Shown: positions 17,179 through 32,577 of the stretch, piece by piece | Position numbering within the stretch: the first letter of the stretch is position 1 | Layout of the letters: each line of letters begins with the position of its first letter | Origin: Fidelibacterota bacterium | Lineage (GTDB): Bacteria; Fidelibacterota; Marinisomatia; Marinisomatales; TCS55 | Length of the DNA stretch: 34,703 nt | Direction: 5' to 3' | Assembly: GCA_012964665.1 (NCBI GenBank) | Contig: DTTO01000015.1 | Coordinates: 8,687-43,389, forward strand | The notes under the pieces: generated by a model | Databases searched by the model: none | What the model was told of the DNA's origin: nothing | What the model saw: only the letters and a program-made list of their open reading frames with translations | Program-made: the position numbers and the translations under genes

Positions 17179-19329
17179 ATGTTAGCGAAACAATTAACTT
17201 CTTTTGTGATATTTTTTGGATTGGTCCCGTTTTTATGGAGCCAATCCGATGAATTTGATTCAAACCAAAAGGAAAAACACGTGAATCGTCTGGCCAAAGA
17301 GTCCAGCCCCTACCTTTTACAGCACCAGTATAATCCCGTGGATTGGTATCCATGGGGACAGGAAGCATTTGACAAAGCAGCTCAGTTGGATCGGCCCATT
17401 TTTCTTTCCATCGGATATTCTACCTGCCACTGGTGCCACGTGATGGAGCATGAATCATTTGAAGATGAACAAGTGGCCGACCTTTTGAATGAAAATTTTA
17501 TTTCTATCAAAGTGGATCGGGAAGAAATGCCTGAAGTGGATCATGTATATATGTCCGTTTGCCAGGCCATGACTGGCCGCGGTGGTTGGCCGTTGACCAT
17601 AATTATGACGCCTAAAAAAGAGCCCTTCTTTGCTGGAACTTATTTTCCTAAAAGCGGTCGATTAGGACGGCCAGGCATGATGGAACTTCTACCCTCTATT
17701 GCTGATGCATGGAAAAATCGACGTGATGAATTAGTAAAGTCTGCGAATAAAATTCATGAATTTTTAATTAGCTCTAATAAAAAACAATTGGGTGATGCCT
17801 TAGATGAATCCATATTACAGAATACCTACTCCCAATTTGTAAATCGCTATGATAAAAACCATGGAGGATTTGGAACGAGACCCAAATTCCCTTCACCTCA
17901 TAATCTAATTTTTCTTTTGCGGTTTCATCATATGACTGGTGATAAAACATCCTTAATGATGGTTGAAAAAACACTACAAGAAATGCGCATGGGCGGCATT
18001 TATGATCATGTGGGGTTTGGCTTTCACCGCTATTCTACCGATGCGGAATGGCTGGTACCTCACTTTGAAAAAATGCTCTATGATCAGGCAATGCTCGCCA
18101 TGGCATATACAGAAGCTTTTCAATTAACTGGAAATAAGGTTTATAAAAAAACAGCAGAAGAAATTTTGACTTACGTGCAAAGAGATATGACTGATTCTCT
18201 AGGTGGATTTTATTCAGCAGAGGATGCAGATAGTGAAGGTGAAGAAGGTCTTTTTTATTTATGGAAAATTGAAGAATTAAATTCAATTTTGGAAGGTGAG
18301 GATGCTAGATTTGTTCAACACGTATTTAATCTTCAACCCGATGGAAATTATAAAGATGAAGCTACGGGCCAATTTACTGGAAGAAATATTTTTTATTTAA
18401 ATAAATCCACATCAGAATTGGCTGATAAGAAAAAGATGTCTATCATCCGGGACAAACTTTTTCATGTTCGTGAAAAACGCATTCACCCCATAAAGGATGA
18501 TAAAATCCTAACAGACTGGAATGGATTAATGATTGCCGCATTTGCCAAAGCCGGCGTGGCTTTTAATTCGCAAGAGTTGATCGAAGCCGCTGAAAAATGC
18601 GCCCAGTTCATTTTGGAAAAACTAACTGATGAAAATGGCAGAATGAAAAAGAGATTTAGAATTGGAGTATCCGGGTTGGATGCGCATTTGGATGATTATG
18701 CCTTTTTTGCGTGGGGATTATTAGAATTATACGAAGCAACTTTTAATATTCAATACCTCCAAAAAGCAATTCAAATAAGCGAAATAATGGTTGCGGAATT
18801 CTGGAACGAATCCAGCGGAGGATTTTATTTAGGCAGTGATAAAACCGAAGCATTAATTGTTCGGTCTATTACAGGATATGATGGAGCAATTCCTTCAGGT
18901 AATTCCATCGCCGCTATGAACCTGCTCAAATTAACGCGCATTACAGGGAATGTAAAATGGGCAGAAATGGCTGACAAAATATTTAATGTATTTTCAAATG
19001 AAATTGAAAGAGCACCCACTGGCTTTACATCAATGGTGACCGCTTTTTTGTTTGAATCAGACCGTCCAAAAGAGATCGTCATCGTGGGATCAGGAAAAGA
19101 TCCTGAAACATGGGCTGCTCTAGATAGAATTAAATCAAAATACAATCCAAATAAGGTAATCCTCTTTAAAAATATTGATGATACAGAACGTGAACTTTCG
19201 CCTTTGGCTAAATGGACTGCTACCCAACAAACGATTGATAATAAAACAACTTTTTATGTCTGCCAAGATTTTGCCTGTAAAATACCCACAACGGATATTA
19301 AACAGGCTATCAAATTCATTAATGAATAA
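17179..19329 (+). CDS. Thioredoxin-domain protein of the DUF255/SPATA20 (YyaL) family with a signal peptide
   Basis: The N-terminal hydrophobic segment (about 5-21, ending LWSQ) looks like a cleavable signal peptide, which would place the protein in the periplasm. The DUF255 thioredoxin-like domain follows at about 36-195: the family hallmark [18 protein letters not shown] at 42-60 and the redox motif C83-H-W-C86 in [14 protein letters not shown]. The rest (about 220-715) is the six-hairpin glycosidase-like domain of this family, including [14 protein letters not shown] and [11 protein letters not shown]. The length of 716 is typical. The biochemical activity of the family is not established, so none is claimed. 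It overlaps a downstream small gene by 8 nt. Confidence 0.93.
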
Positions 19330-19555: not shown

Positions 19556-20791
19556 CTAATTATTTGGATATAAGTTGGATTCACCTTCGCTTTTTGCTAC
19601 CACCACAGCTCCGATGCTATCGCTAGCCACGTTCACCATGGTACGGTACATGTCCAAAGGTCGGTCCACGGCCAGCATGGTACCCACGATTACTCCAGCG
19701 CCAGGGTGATCTCCGAGACCTACAGCACCCAGTACAATAAAGATCATTACCAGTCCTGCAGAAGGAACCGCAGCTGCACCCACAGAAGCCAGAAAAGCGG
19801 TCAAGACAACCACGACCTGTTGTGAAATAGATAGATCAATCCCTAGTGCCTGAGAAATAAATAAAACACCGGCACATTCGTAAAGTGCCGTCCCATCCAT
19901 ATTGATCGTTGCTCCCAAAGGCAGTACAAAGCTGGTGGTACGATTCGAAACCCCTACATTATTTTCGATGCAATCAATTGTCACTGGTAGTGTGGCACCA
20001 GATGAACTGGTTGAAAATGCGGTGGCAAAAGCGGAAGCCATAGCCTTCCAATGTTTCAAAGGACTGATTCTAGTGAAAATAAAAAATACCAGTGGTAGAA
20101 TAACCAGAAAATGGAAGGAAAGACCGATAAATATGGTAATTATATATTTACCCACAGCCTTAAAAACATCTATTCCTGAATTGGCAACTGCTGTAGTGAT
20201 TAGGCCAAATACACCAATGGGAAGCAGTGCAATGATGCCTTGAGTAAGCTTCATCATTGCTTTAAATCCATATCCAAAAAAATTTATAAAAAATTCTTGC
20301 GGTTTCCCGGAAAGCCGGGTAATAGAAAAACCAAATAAAATAGACCAAAATATAATACCCAGCATATCTCCATCGGCAGCAGCTTTGATAGGGTTCAAGG
20401 GTATCATCCGTATCAATATTCCTGCTAGGGAATCAGGTTTATTCAATGATGCCGGATCAAAATCTCCACCCATACCTGAAAATTCAACTCCAACTCCTGG
20501 CTTAATGATGTTGGTCAGCAACAGTCCTGTTATAATAGCCAAAAAAGATGTTAAAAAATAATACCCGAACGTTTTGGCGCCCATTCTTCCAAGTGTTTTG
20601 CTATCACCAAGACTTGCCACACCGCTGGTGATGGAAAAAATAATGAGAGGAACAATGATCATTTTTAGCAGGCGCATGAAAATAGTCCCAAGCGGTGTTA
20701 CCACTGTTGATCTTTCCCCCATAATAAGTGCGAATAATATGCCCAGAGCCATCGCAATGAAAACCTGCCAGTGAAGTTTTAGCTTAAACAT
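19556..20791 (-). CDS. Dicarboxylate/amino acid:cation symporter (DAACS/GltP type)
   Basis: Sodium- or proton-coupled inner-membrane carrier for glutamate, aspartate or C4-dicarboxylates. The family fingerprints are present: the serine-rich HP1 loop SSSG at 262-265 within TSSSGATLPVT, and the TM7 cation-binding motif NMDGT at 297-301. About eight hydrophobic segments plus two hairpins fit a 411-residue GltP/GltPh fold. Substrate preference is not readable with confidence. It is a single gene with convergent neighbours downstream (24 nt from the small gene) and a 397-nt upstream region holding a palindrome and a candidate RNA gene. Confidence 0.95.
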   Translation of the reverse strand: MFKLKLHWQVFIAMALGILFALIMGERSTVVTPLGTIFMRLLKMIIVPLIIFSITSGVASLGDSKTLGRMGAKTFGYYFLTSFLAIITGLLLTNIIKPGVGVEFSGMGGDFDPASLNKPDSLAGILIRMIPLNPIKAAADGDMLGIIFWSILFGFSITRLSGKPQEFFINFFGYGFKAMMKLTQGIIALLPIGVFGLITTAVANSGIDVFKAVGKYIITIFIGLSFHFLVILPLVFFIFTRISPLKHWKAMASAFATAFSTSSSGATLPVTIDCIENNVGVSNRTTSFVLPLGATINMDGTALYECAGVLFISQALGIDLSISQQVVVVLTAFLASVGAAAVPSAGLVMIFIVLGAVGLGDHPGAGVIVGTMLAVDRPLDMYRTMVNVASDSIGAVVVAKSEGESNLYPNN

Positions 20792-20940: not shown

Positions 20941-20968
20941 TTGAAAGCAATAAAATAATAACTGTAAA
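20941..20968 (+). promoter_or_regulatory. Candidate promoter of the structured RNA
   Basis: TTGAAA at 20941-20946 (five of six matches to the -35 consensus) and TGTAAA at 20963-20968 (four of six matches to the -10) are 16 bp apart. This predicts a start near 20975, just before the first paired base of the RNA. The sequence is AT-rich, so chance matches are possible. Confidence 0.33.
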
Positions 20969-20974
20969 CTCTAA

Positions 20975-21190
20975 CAGCTATTTAAGATTTCTTACTTCAG
21001 TCTGTGAATTTCAGGATCTTCAATTATTAATCCTAGAGATCACTCTCTGAAGCCAAAAAACAGGCCTTTCCTGATTTTATTGGGATAAAGGAAGTTTGCT
21101 GGCGCCAGGTGCCTCTACCGTGTTTTACGGATCCTTGAAATCAATTCTGAAGTAATAAAAGAAAAACCCCCGATTTATTCGGGGGTTTTT
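20975..21190 (+). ncRNA. Candidate structured RNA of about 200 nt, 6S RNA (ssrS)-like
   Basis: The 397-nt gap 20792-21188 has no credible protein gene, but 20988-21159 folds by hand into one long interrupted rod. The closing stem is TTACTTCAG (20992-21000) with CTGAAGTAA (21147-21155), nine perfect pairs, extendable past one mismatch. After a small asymmetric loop, a 12-bp stem pairs 21008-21019 with 21129-21141, with one bulged base. A central bubble follows (21020-21034 and 21117-21128). The apical arm pairs 21035-21038/21113-21116, 21041-21043/21109-21111, 21052-21055/21100-21103, 21058-21061/21094-21097 and 21065-21069/21087-21091. Several G-U pairs work only for a plus-strand transcript. 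A strong terminator follows at once. Closing stem, central bubble, apical arm and size are those of 6S RNA; the identity is inference, since I recognise no conserved primary sequence. Confidence 0.5.
21162..21190. terminator. Strong bidirectional rho-independent terminator shared by hflX and the candidate RNA
   Basis: The stem CCCCCGA (21167-21173) / TCGGGGG (21179-21185) has a 5-nt loop and is flanked by AAAAA (21162-21166) and TTTTT (21186-21190), so it ends in a T-run on either strand. On the minus strand it begins inside the hflX stop codon (21189-21191). On the plus strand it ends the structured RNA. Confidence 0.93.
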
Positions 21191-22460
21191 ACTTATTTAA
21201 TTCCGCTTGTATTTGGTTGATTCGCCAGCGGGAGGCTTTTACTTTTAGTCGTACACAATCATCTTCATAATTACGCTCCAAAACATCTACCCCTTTTTGT
21301 GCAAGTGCCATTTCTTTTGCTTCCTTGTACGAAAAAAGAAGATCAATAGTCTGAAAATCTTTATCCATTACATCAACAATCTTCTGGGTAAGTTTATTAA
21401 TGCGTAAATTATTTAAGGCAGATAAATAAATCCCTTCGGGAAATTTTCGCTTTAAAAAGTTCAATTGTTTTGCAGCATTTTCTTCGTCAATTTTATTCAT
21501 TATAACAACCGTTTGATGTCTTTCAGCCCCAAGTTCTTTTAAAACTTCTACAATTGTATTATAGTGCTCCACAACTTGTGTTGATGATGCATCTAGAACC
21601 AGGAGAATTAAATCTGCATCAACAACTTCCTTTAAAGTACTTTTGAAAGTGGCCACTAAATGATGGGGTAACTTTCGTACAAATCCAACGGTATCACTAA
21701 GAAGAATTTTATGCGAAGTATTTAATTCAACCGATCGGATGGTTGTATCCAAAGTTGCAAAAAGTTTATCCTCAACAAAAACATTGGCACCCGAAATTGC
21801 ATTCATTAGTGTTGATTTTCCTGCATTGGTATAGCCAACCAGAGCAACTTTAAATACATTTCCACGTCTTTTACTTTGTGTTTCGCGTTCTTTTTCAATT
21901 TTTATTAGATCACGTTTTAATTTCGAAATACGTGTTCTGATTAAACGCCTGTCTACCTCAATTTGAGTTTCACCTGCACCTGCACGTGTCCCTATTCCAC
22001 CCATTTGGCGTTCCAAATGACTCCAGGCCTTGGATAATCGGGGCAGCATATATTCCAACTGGGCCAATTCAACCTGGGTCTGGGCCTCCTTGGTTTGTGC
22101 ATGCTGTCTGAAAATATCCAAAATAAGGGCACCCCGATCTATAACCTTTACATCCTTCGCTAGGTTAATAAAATTTTTTAATTGAGCTGGGCTAAGTTCA
22201 TCATCAAAAATGATTAAAGAGACACCTAATTCTTTAGCCTGGCTGATAATCTGTTCTGCTTTACCAGTACCAATAAAAAAAGACGGATTAATTCGTGATA
22301 ATTTTTGCGTGATATTACCAACAACCTCAGCACCTGCAGTGATGGCCAAAAGACGTAATTCATCAAGATGATCTTCTACTATTTGTTCATCCAATTCACC
22401 ATGAATTACTCCTATGAGGAGAGCTTTTTCTTTTGATTTGGAGTTAGAATTATTAATCAT
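21189..22460 (-). CDS. hflX: Ribosome-associated GTPase HflX
   Basis: TRAFAC-class GTPase that binds the 50S subunit and splits or rescues stalled ribosomes. The HflX-specific N-terminal domain covers about 1-150. The linker helix carries the family signature GGIGTRAGAGETQ at 154-166. The G domain has G1 GYTNAGKS (209-216), G3 DTVG (256-259) and G4 NKID (about 317-320), followed by a short C-terminal domain. At 423 residues it is normal length. Its ATG overlaps the BatA-like gene's stop (ATGA). It is the last gene of the long minus-strand run and ends at a strong terminator. Confidence 0.97.
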   Translation of the reverse strand: MINNSNSKSKEKALLIGVIHGELDEQIVEDHLDELRLLAITAGAEVVGNITQKLSRINPSFFIGTGKAEQIISQAKELGVSLIIFDDELSPAQLKNFINLAKDVKVIDRGALILDIFRQHAQTKEAQTQVELAQLEYMLPRLSKAWSHLERQMGGIGTRAGAGETQIEVDRRLIRTRISKLKRDLIKIEKERETQSKRRGNVFKVALVGYTNAGKSTLMNAISGANVFVEDKLFATLDTTIRSVELNTSHKILLSDTVGFVRKLPHHLVATFKSTLKEVVDADLILLVLDASSTQVVEHYNTIVEVLKELGAERHQTVVIMNKIDEENAAKQLNFLKRKFPEGIYLSALNNLRINKLTQKIVDVMDKDFQTIDLLFSYKEAKEMALAQKGVDVLERNYEDDCVRLKVKASRWRINQIQAELNK

Positions 22461-30241: not shown

Positions 30242-32577
30242 GATTTTTTGTTTCCAAAATATCCCAATCCAATGAATCCTAAAGCCAGGGCAAATGAAGC
30301 AAAAGAGATTATTACTCCTTTATTGAAAGCAGATTTGTCATATATGAATTCAATCGTATGTTTTCCCGTTGGAACAACGACACCCCTTAAAATACCATTT
30401 ACTAAATGGGTCTGCGTTTCTTCACCATCAATCATGGCTTTCCAACGAATCGGATAATATATTTCGCTCAATACCAGGAAATGATTACCATCTGACTCTG
30501 TTGACATGGTTATTCTGTGAATACTTTTTTCGAAATGAGTAATTGACACCTGACTGCCAGAAGAAACGCTCACTTCATTTGAAACATAGGCTGTTTTTCT
30601 CGGATCAAAATCTGGTTGTATAATTTTATTCCAAACCTCATCTTCTGATATAACTTCTGTTTTGTTTACAAACCAAGCTCGGGGCAATGTATTGTCCACT
30701 TCATAAACTTCTATCGGCAGATCTCCGCGGGAGGATTTTAACGCTCCGCTTTTCACCAAGCTCAGTTCCGGATGATTGATCTTCTGGGGACTGATAAGGT
30801 ATTTCACATTCATCATTCGCAATACAGGGATTGCTGCAGCATTGCCAGTTTTGGCTAAAAACGTATTGTATTTTTTCAGTTTCGCGGGATGATATCCACC
30901 GATCGATTCTAAACCAAAAGCAGCAAAACGGCTTTCACCAAATAAACCACCTACTGGATAAATTCTATAAATACTTTTATCCAATAATAAGAACTGAACA
31001 ATTTCATCTACCTGAAAAAATCGATCTACCGCGCGTTTTGATATTAATTGCGACTCACGCCCACTTGCGCGAGAGGGCTGAATGATTTTATGGTTAACTA
31101 TACCAATATCTACGATTGCCGAAGCTATAATTATACTTACAAGGACATGCTGCGAAACTTTTCGTTTGATCCAAAGCCATATCATTACCATAAAAACTCC
31201 TGATAAAAGAATCATCAGCCATACATCCTCCTGCCAAAGGCTCCAACGAAGGTTGTTCAATGCTTGGGCAGCTCGTGGATCTTGCATCATAGGGGGAGAA
31301 AAACTCCCTCGGACTGCAGATTCAACGCCCGAACCAATAAGTACCATACTAATAAAGGCCAATCCTACTGCCGTTGCAAATCCCCAGAACCATTTCGGGA
31401 TTATTTCTGCTTTTAATGCTACAAGTTTATCCAACCCAAACGCGGCTAGAACAGCCACATTAAACTGGAGTAAGATAAGAATCATGTGCGGAACACGAAA
31501 CTTGTTGAAATATGGAAAAATGTTGAAAAATAAATCATAAACAAGGCTAAAATGCCTACCAAAGGAAATGAAAAGTGCCAAAATCGAAGTAACAGTGAAA
31601 AACCAATGGATTAATTCTCTTTTGTGAATCAATCCGATCATAGCCAATAGCAGGATAATGATTCCCATATAATTTGGATAATCTGTAAATGGCATATACC
31701 CCCAATAAGACTGTCCACCGAATCCAAATGCAGAAGGAATAAAAAAGGTCATTATTTCTTTCGGGTGAAAGGACCATCCGGTGGCATAATTATAATCTGC
31801 GCCACCACCTGCAGATCCTCCCCTAATGGAAAATGGGGTATAATCCATAGCTGGTAAAAATATGATCAATGATATGCCAACCCCAATCAAACAAGCCAAA
31901 ATAAAATATCCAAATCCTTTTCCAATATTGGCTTTTTCGTCCGAATTGCGAAGTCCATTGATTAACATTAATAAACTATAAGCACCAATCAACATCCAGG
32001 TATAATAGGCGATCTGAGCGTGGCCTCTTTGCAATTGAAAACCTAGTAATACTGCCAGCCATCCGGTATCCCAGAAATTGGTATTTTGCCATAATCTTAC
32101 GGTAAACCAGAAAACCCATGGTATATAGGCGGCGGTCATCATTTGACTGCCGTGCCCGAAGACAACCATGGTAACCATGTATGGTGTTATCATAAAAGCG
32201 GTTGCACCTAATCCGGCCGCCCAATCTGAACATTTAAAATGTCTTAACAAAAGGAACCCGCCTATTCCCGCAAAGAGGAGATGGAGCAGTTGAATGAGCA
32301 TTCCCGGTAAAAAAAACAGTTTAAATAAATATTCCGGGAAATAAAGCTTTGATAAATTTGTAAACGCTTCCGCAGACGGCATTCCACTAAATACCCATGG
32401 CTGCCATTGGGGAAATTCGCCCGTTTCAACGGATAAATCATTTAAGGCCATACCCACAGCTTTAGGACTAAGACTATCTGGTGAACTAAATGTTTTCCCA
32501 CCAAAAATAACTGGCTCAAAAAATACAGCGATAATAACGAGCATCGCTAAGGATGCTAAAATGATCGGATTTTTCAT
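30238..32577 (-). CDS. YfhO-family polytopic membrane protein
   Basis: Large membrane protein (779 residues from ATG 32577; a TTG at 32589 is a possible earlier start). The first segment is followed by an extracytoplasmic loop with SPDSLSPKA and a conserved W-x-P-W region, then about 12 more hydrophobic segments to about residue 490. A soluble beta-rich domain (about 500-750) and a last transmembrane segment complete it. The C-terminal FLVLSEIYYPIRWKAMIDG stretch (about 700-720) is characteristic of YfhO proteins, which are GT-C-like; B. subtilis YfhO has been linked to lipoteichoic acid glycosylation. Placed beside a flippase and a glycosyltransferase, a role in polysaccharide or glycolipid assembly is likely but inferred. 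Confidence 0.85.
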   Translation of the reverse strand: MKNPIILASLAMLVIIAVFFEPVIFGGKTFSSPDSLSPKAVGMALNDLSVETGEFPQWQPWVFSGMPSAEAFTNLSKLYFPEYLFKLFFLPGMLIQLLHLLFAGIGGFLLLRHFKCSDWAAGLGATAFMITPYMVTMVVFGHGSQMMTAAYIPWVFWFTVRLWQNTNFWDTGWLAVLLGFQLQRGHAQIAYYTWMLIGAYSLLMLINGLRNSDEKANIGKGFGYFILACLIGVGISLIIFLPAMDYTPFSIRGGSAGGGADYNYATGWSFHPKEIMTFFIPSAFGFGGQSYWGYMPFTDYPNYMGIIILLLAMIGLIHKRELIHWFFTVTSILALFISFGRHFSLVYDLFFNIFPYFNKFRVPHMILILLQFNVAVLAAFGLDKLVALKAEIIPKWFWGFATAVGLAFISMVLIGSGVESAVRGSFSPPMMQDPRAAQALNNLRWSLWQEDVWLMILLSGVFMVMIWLWIKRKVSQHVLVSIIIASAIVDIGIVNHKIIQPSRASGRESQLISKRAVDRFFQVDEIVQFLLLDKSIYRIYPVGGLFGESRFAAFGLESIGGYHPAKLKKYNTFLAKTGNAAAIPVLRMMNVKYLISPQKINHPELSLVKSGALKSSRGDLPIEVYEVDNTLPRAWFVNKTEVISEDEVWNKIIQPDFDPRKTAYVSNEVSVSSGSQVSITHFEKSIHRITMSTESDGNHFLVLSEIYYPIRWKAMIDGEETQTHLVNGILRGVVVPTGKHTIEFIYDKSAFNKGVIISFASFALALGFIGLGYFGNKKS

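Follow-up and report, generated by a model that had tools for sequence, protein, structure and literature searches.

A probable divergent 6S RNA (ssrS) gene next to hflX in a Marinimicrobia bacterium

Between hflX and the gene for a dicarboxylate symporter, the 34,703-nucleotide stretch of DNA analyzed here (the window) carries a structured RNA, for which a preliminary description had proposed a 6S identity. The locus raises the question of whether this RNA is a 6S RNA and, if so, why the general Rfam model of the family (RF00013) does not find it. Our reading, to which we give a probability of about 0.93, is that a Marinimicrobia bacterium here encodes a divergent 6S RNA (ssrS). This reading rests on a covarying rod, a conserved promoter and terminator, copy number and homology to loci that Rfam recognizes. 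Relatives were sampled at two levels, 130 genomes of the order and 245 genomes of the phylum.

Locus and fold of the RNA

The position proposed for the RNA agrees with the domain matches of its two neighbors (GTP-bdg_N/M and MMR_HSR1 in HflX, SDF in the symporter). The RNA lies on the plus strand and both neighbors on the minus strand (Table 1). Orthologues of HflX with 74-94% identity were found in MAGs of Candidatus Marinimicrobia (Neomarinimicrobiota, SAR406). The symporter slot beside the RNA gene turns over among relatives (L001-L030). In the window and in its nearest relative (L002) the gene in this slot is divergent from the RNA, and in most other relatives an SDF symporter (~40% or ~75% identical) is encoded upstream, in the same direction as the RNA. 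Several further families of the order also keep the YyaL-like gene near the RNA and hflX.

Table 1. Features of the RNA gene and its surroundings, in window coordinates
Feature	Position	Strand	Evidence and remarks
DUF255/Thioredox_DsbH (YyaL-like) gene	17179-19329		Beyond the symporter gene
SDF-family dicarboxylate symporter gene	19556-20791	-	Other flank of the RNA gene
Predicted sigma-70-type promoter, TTGAAA-18-TAAACT	20941-20970	+	9/12 consensus matches; kept in relatives
Probable 6S RNA core	20990-21157	+	Full-length covariance-model match; reciprocal matches with RF00013-positive loci
Outer closing stem, 5' side	20992-21000	+	9 bp with 21147-21155; predicted fold and covariation
Inner closing helix (P2/downstream duplex), 5' side	21005-21018	+	Pairs with 21130-21145; covariation and fold
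Central bubble, 5' strand	21019-21033	+	15 nt; predicted fold
Apical arm	21034-21117	+	Invariant columns; covariation in helices 3-6
Central bubble, 3' strand	21118-21129	+	12 nt; predicted fold; in relatives aligned to the Rfam CCCACC block
Closing stems, 3' sides	21130-21155	+	Covariation and predicted fold
Intrinsic terminator	21162-21190	+	12-bp stem; predicted, usable in both directions
hflX	21189-22460	-	Pfam GTP-bdg_N, GTP-bdg_M, MMR_HSR1; convergent with the RNA gene; synteny in relatives

The long interrupted hairpin that had been paired by hand is closely reproduced by the computed fold of the core, with its nine-pair closing stem, second closing stem, central bubble of 15 and 12 nt and long apical arm all at the positions of Table 1. 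With the terminator included, the minimum free energy is -68.2 kcal/mol vs -46.9 +/- 4.0 kcal/mol in 200 dinucleotide shuffles (z -5.31), the controls suggested earlier, none of which was as low. In the fold computed without the terminator, positions 21020-21033 are unpaired with a probability of 0.83-0.97. A small CCGU/ACGG hairpin is possible in the 3' bubble (21118-21130); it appears in the minimum free energy structure of the window with partial probability, and its sequence varies among relatives. The rod with its closing stem, large open 5' bubble strand and apical stem has the canonical layout of 6S RNA.

The promoter-like pair noted upstream was recovered as a predicted promoter, and its elements (TTGAA ... 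TGTAAACTt) are conserved in most same-genus relatives, with the RNA start predicted near 20976. The strong terminator that had been placed directly 3' of the hairpin is also found there, following the 168-nt core, and this predicted terminator is common to the convergent hflX, which it faces. In one genome of the same genus (G007, locus L017) the usual GC-rich terminator directly 3' of the RNA is absent (downstream of 1670). The RNA has a size of ~180-200 nt, its own predicted promoter and terminator and usually a single copy, all of them properties of 6S RNA.

Homologues and the reach of the covariance models

No Rfam family reaches its gathering score in the window. At E<=10 the RNA region gave no match to 6S RNA or to 6S-Flavo (RF01685), and what did match were mainly weak hits on the terminator, to rimP, rnk and other families. 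A search of the window's own genome (75.6% complete) with RF00013 gave no match. Therefore, the Rfam test proposed in the preliminary description fails on the window alone. RF00013 matched 14 of the 130 genomes of the order at E<0.1, none of them in the window's own family; two were over the cut-off, the best with 46.7 bits vs 46.4.

Homologues were found by blastn in 49 of 61 relatives, some of the weakest matches covering terminators only. A first covariance model (R1) was built from 23 homologues only, all from RF00013-negative families close to the window. R1 matches were found in 89/130 genomes of the order and overlap all 14 RF00013 matches, for instance at 2580-2759 and 2584-2754 in G091:C29 and at 31447-31642 and 31452-31638 in G043:C5. 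The RF00013-positive loci L059-L067 score 76-103 bits with R1, and L068, which contains Ns, scores 64 bits. As in the window, hflX adjoins the RNA at all ten of these loci (L059-L068), and a YyaL homologue is also present at seven. In the phylum, R1 matched 145/245 genomes, among them loci of other classes in G213 (E 1.4e-9) and G214 (E 2.3e-9), which coincide with RF00013 matches of 65.4 and 62.8 bits. The core in the window scores 156 bits with R1 (E 1.4e-37), its sequence being part of the R1 training set.

A second, order-wide model (R2) contains 70 sequences, thirteen of them RF00013-positive, and gives the core 124.7 bits. R2 recovered 12/12 fetched RF00013 loci over the cut-off outside the order, all in other classes, which are the best Rfam-positive 6S loci elsewhere in the phylum, with E values of 6e-21 to 4e-16. 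R2 gave no match at the E. coli ssrS locus or in unrelated sequences flanking hflX in other phyla. Because R2 misses E. coli 6S RNA, the connection with classical 6S RNA is made through the Rfam-positive Marinimicrobia intermediates, of which L059 and L147 score with both models.

Covariation, which the preliminary description had suggested examining, is strong in an alignment of 70 homologues of the order (A3). In A3, which was fitted to the structure of the model and is compared with shuffles that do not preserve relatedness, so that its numbers lean upward, 91.7% of cells pair vs 74.3% after shuffling, both-sided (compensatory) changes occur in 38 of 50 pairs and the covariation score is 0.514 vs 0.197, none of the 500 shuffles reaching the real value in any of the three. 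Shifting the 3' partners by 1-3 columns lowers pairing to 37-55%. The outer stem (helix 1) has double changes in all eight modelled pairs and is 96.6% paired; its covariation is unambiguous despite the upward lean. Helix 2, the inner closing helix, has double changes in 11 of 13 pairs, and helix 3, adjoining the bubble, is the weakest (79.5% paired, with one pair failing in 41 sequences). An alignment of 28 sequences contains an invariant block UUCAGGAUCU.C.A across the inner helix and the 5' bubble and the invariant apical blocks AAAAAACAG.CCUU ... AAGG..GUUUGCU; a 3' block that ends in UGAAA is conserved. RNAalifold found double changes in 21 of 41 pairs. The apical motif CAAAAAACAGGCCUU (21054-21068) ... 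AAGGAAGUUUGCUG (21088-21101) is nearly invariant across the order, which exceeds what is expected of a plain helix, and a -35-like contact is presumed. A likeness of the apical arm to the domain of SRP RNA was set aside, because no SRP match was found at E<=10 and 6S homology explains the conservation of the arm.

The 6S reading, the putative pRNA and other explanations

Reciprocal model matches at identical places, hflX synteny with RF00013-positive orthologues and strong covariation all support the 6S identity proposed in the preliminary description. Against it stand the lack of an RF00013 match at E<=10, the failure of R2 on E. coli 6S RNA and the A at position 5 of the putative pRNA. An unrelated trans-acting or protein-binding RNA, its rod resembling 6S RNA by coincidence, might be argued from the missing direct Rfam match of the window; the reciprocal matches, the hflX synteny shared with RF00013-positive loci and the intermediates scoring with both models make this highly improbable. 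That the sequence serves hflX or the symporter gene in cis, as a leader, attenuator or untranslated region, is scarcely conceivable. The RNA does lie between these genes and has its terminator in common with hflX, but it is encoded opposite to both, has a promoter-like site and terminator of its own, and is retained in relatives while the other flanking gene changes in identity and orientation.

The anatomy of 6S RNA comprises a rod, an open 5' bubble with a small hairpin opposite and a pRNA start within the bubble, the apical arm corresponding to the -35-like region and the 3' bubble to the -10-like region (PMC8414754, PMC8876501). The pRNA has an adenine beside its start and GG at positions 4/5 or 5/6 (PMC8414754). 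In cmscan alignments of relatives, the ACCCACCGUG block lines up with CCCACC, the Rfam block of the 3' bubble, and at the edge of the 5' bubble GGAACC or AGGAUCU lines up with the Rfam block GAgCC. Mapped via the Rfam alignment, C21021 of the window is presumably the counterpart of the E. coli pRNA start. The pRNA would then start opposite C21021 and is predicted to read 5'-GAAGAUCCUGAAAU (longer form 5'-GAAGAUCC...); the adenine beside this putative start (A21022) is kept. With starts placed by alignment, the pRNA of the window would read GAAGA, with GA at 4/5, as in its clade, and A instead of G at position 5, and that of family f8 would read GUAGGUUCC (GUAGG, with GG at 4/5).

By analogy with the rest of the family, we infer that this RNA is transcribed, binds RNA polymerase and templates pRNA, and membership of the family suggests a function on sigma-70 RNA polymerase. 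An abundant RNA of ~200 nt would occupy the polymerase carrying the housekeeping sigma factor by imitating an open promoter, its apical arm being -35-like and its 3' bubble -10-like. From about C21021, the polymerase may copy the 5' bubble strand and the inner closing helix, the putative template, into a short pRNA, and this synthesis would open the inner helix and free the polymerase once nucleotides return. When pairing of 9-14 template bases was forbidden in silico, the remaining rod stayed folded, with a 3'-bubble hairpin of 5 bp.

A 6S RNA by descent may also have changed its function in this clade, by losing pRNA templating or by binding core polymerase as Ms1 of actinobacteria does, which shows that a 6S-like fold can bind the core enzyme instead (PMC9130861). 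The drift of the clade below Rfam detection, the reduction of the usual GG to GA and the almost invariant part of the apical arm, suggestive of a special contact, would fit such a change. However, strong conservation of the 5' bubble edge, the closing helix and the 3' bubble block is what an RNA acting as template and promoter mimic should show, and the RNA has a size typical of 6S RNA, while Ms1 measures ~300 nt with extra hairpins (PMC9130861). We therefore consider a changed function improbable. Somewhat less improbable, but still unlikely, is that 6S rules are altered here, reading jointly the invariant apical motif as a specific contact with polymerase or sigma and the pRNA as one without GG; if true, release would follow neither the E. 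coli nor the B. subtilis type.

As a probable 6S RNA, the window RNA can be compared with three known forms. With 6S/SsrS (RF00013, including B. subtilis 6S-1) it shares the closing-stem rod, the open 5' bubble, the apical arm, ~200 nt and its own terminator, and perhaps a 3'-bubble hairpin (of partial probability in the window), and its sister-family orthologues score over the full RF00013 model. It differs in falling below RF00013 detection, in the putative GA instead of GG at pRNA positions 4/5, and in adjoining hflX, where E. coli 6S RNA adjoins the gene for 5-formyltetrahydrofolate cyclo-ligase. The 6S-Flavo RNA is likewise a lineage-specific form missed by the general model (PMC2864571), but it belongs to another phylum and does not match the window RNA. 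The Ms1 RNA, which binds core polymerase (PMC9130861), resembles it in the 6S-like central bubble and in a link to RNA polymerase, proposed here by analogy; its additional 5' and 3' terminal hairpins have no counterpart in the window RNA, where the core is directly followed by the terminator.

Occurrence in the phylum

R2 matched 184/245 genomes of the phylum (76/94 of the better-quality ones) vs 56/245 for RF00013 (19 over the cut-off, the best with 85.3 bits), so that the standard model underdetects 6S RNA in this lineage. The form in this group has diverged beyond detection by that model, and the Rfam miss in the window reflects how far the model's sensitivity reaches, not a biological trait that defines the family. 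It is a clean case of a nearly universal RNA called absent owing to model sensitivity. The novelty is limited: the branch is new and escapes Rfam, but the family as such is nearly universal. The range of 6S RNA comes to include a large ocean lineage without cultured members, and a literature search found no paper naming 6S RNA together with Marinimicrobia. The alignment offers a basis for an improved Rfam seed and a sequence to seek in ocean metatranscriptomes.

Family f15 of the same order (G063-G075 and others), with genomes of 0.4-1 Mb, several of them >90% complete, gave no match to R1, R2 or RF00013; 6S RNA has either been lost there or diverged extremely. In the R2 search, G020 and G057 (91% complete) were without the RNA though their families otherwise carry it, possibly owing to assembly gaps. 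Matching genomes have one match each, except for three of those listed, which have two. In G109, two different 6S-like matches are present (G109:C43:339-511, L128, and G109:C4:2980-3151, L132); the genome may encode a further 6S RNA, or the bin may be mixed (contamination 4%).
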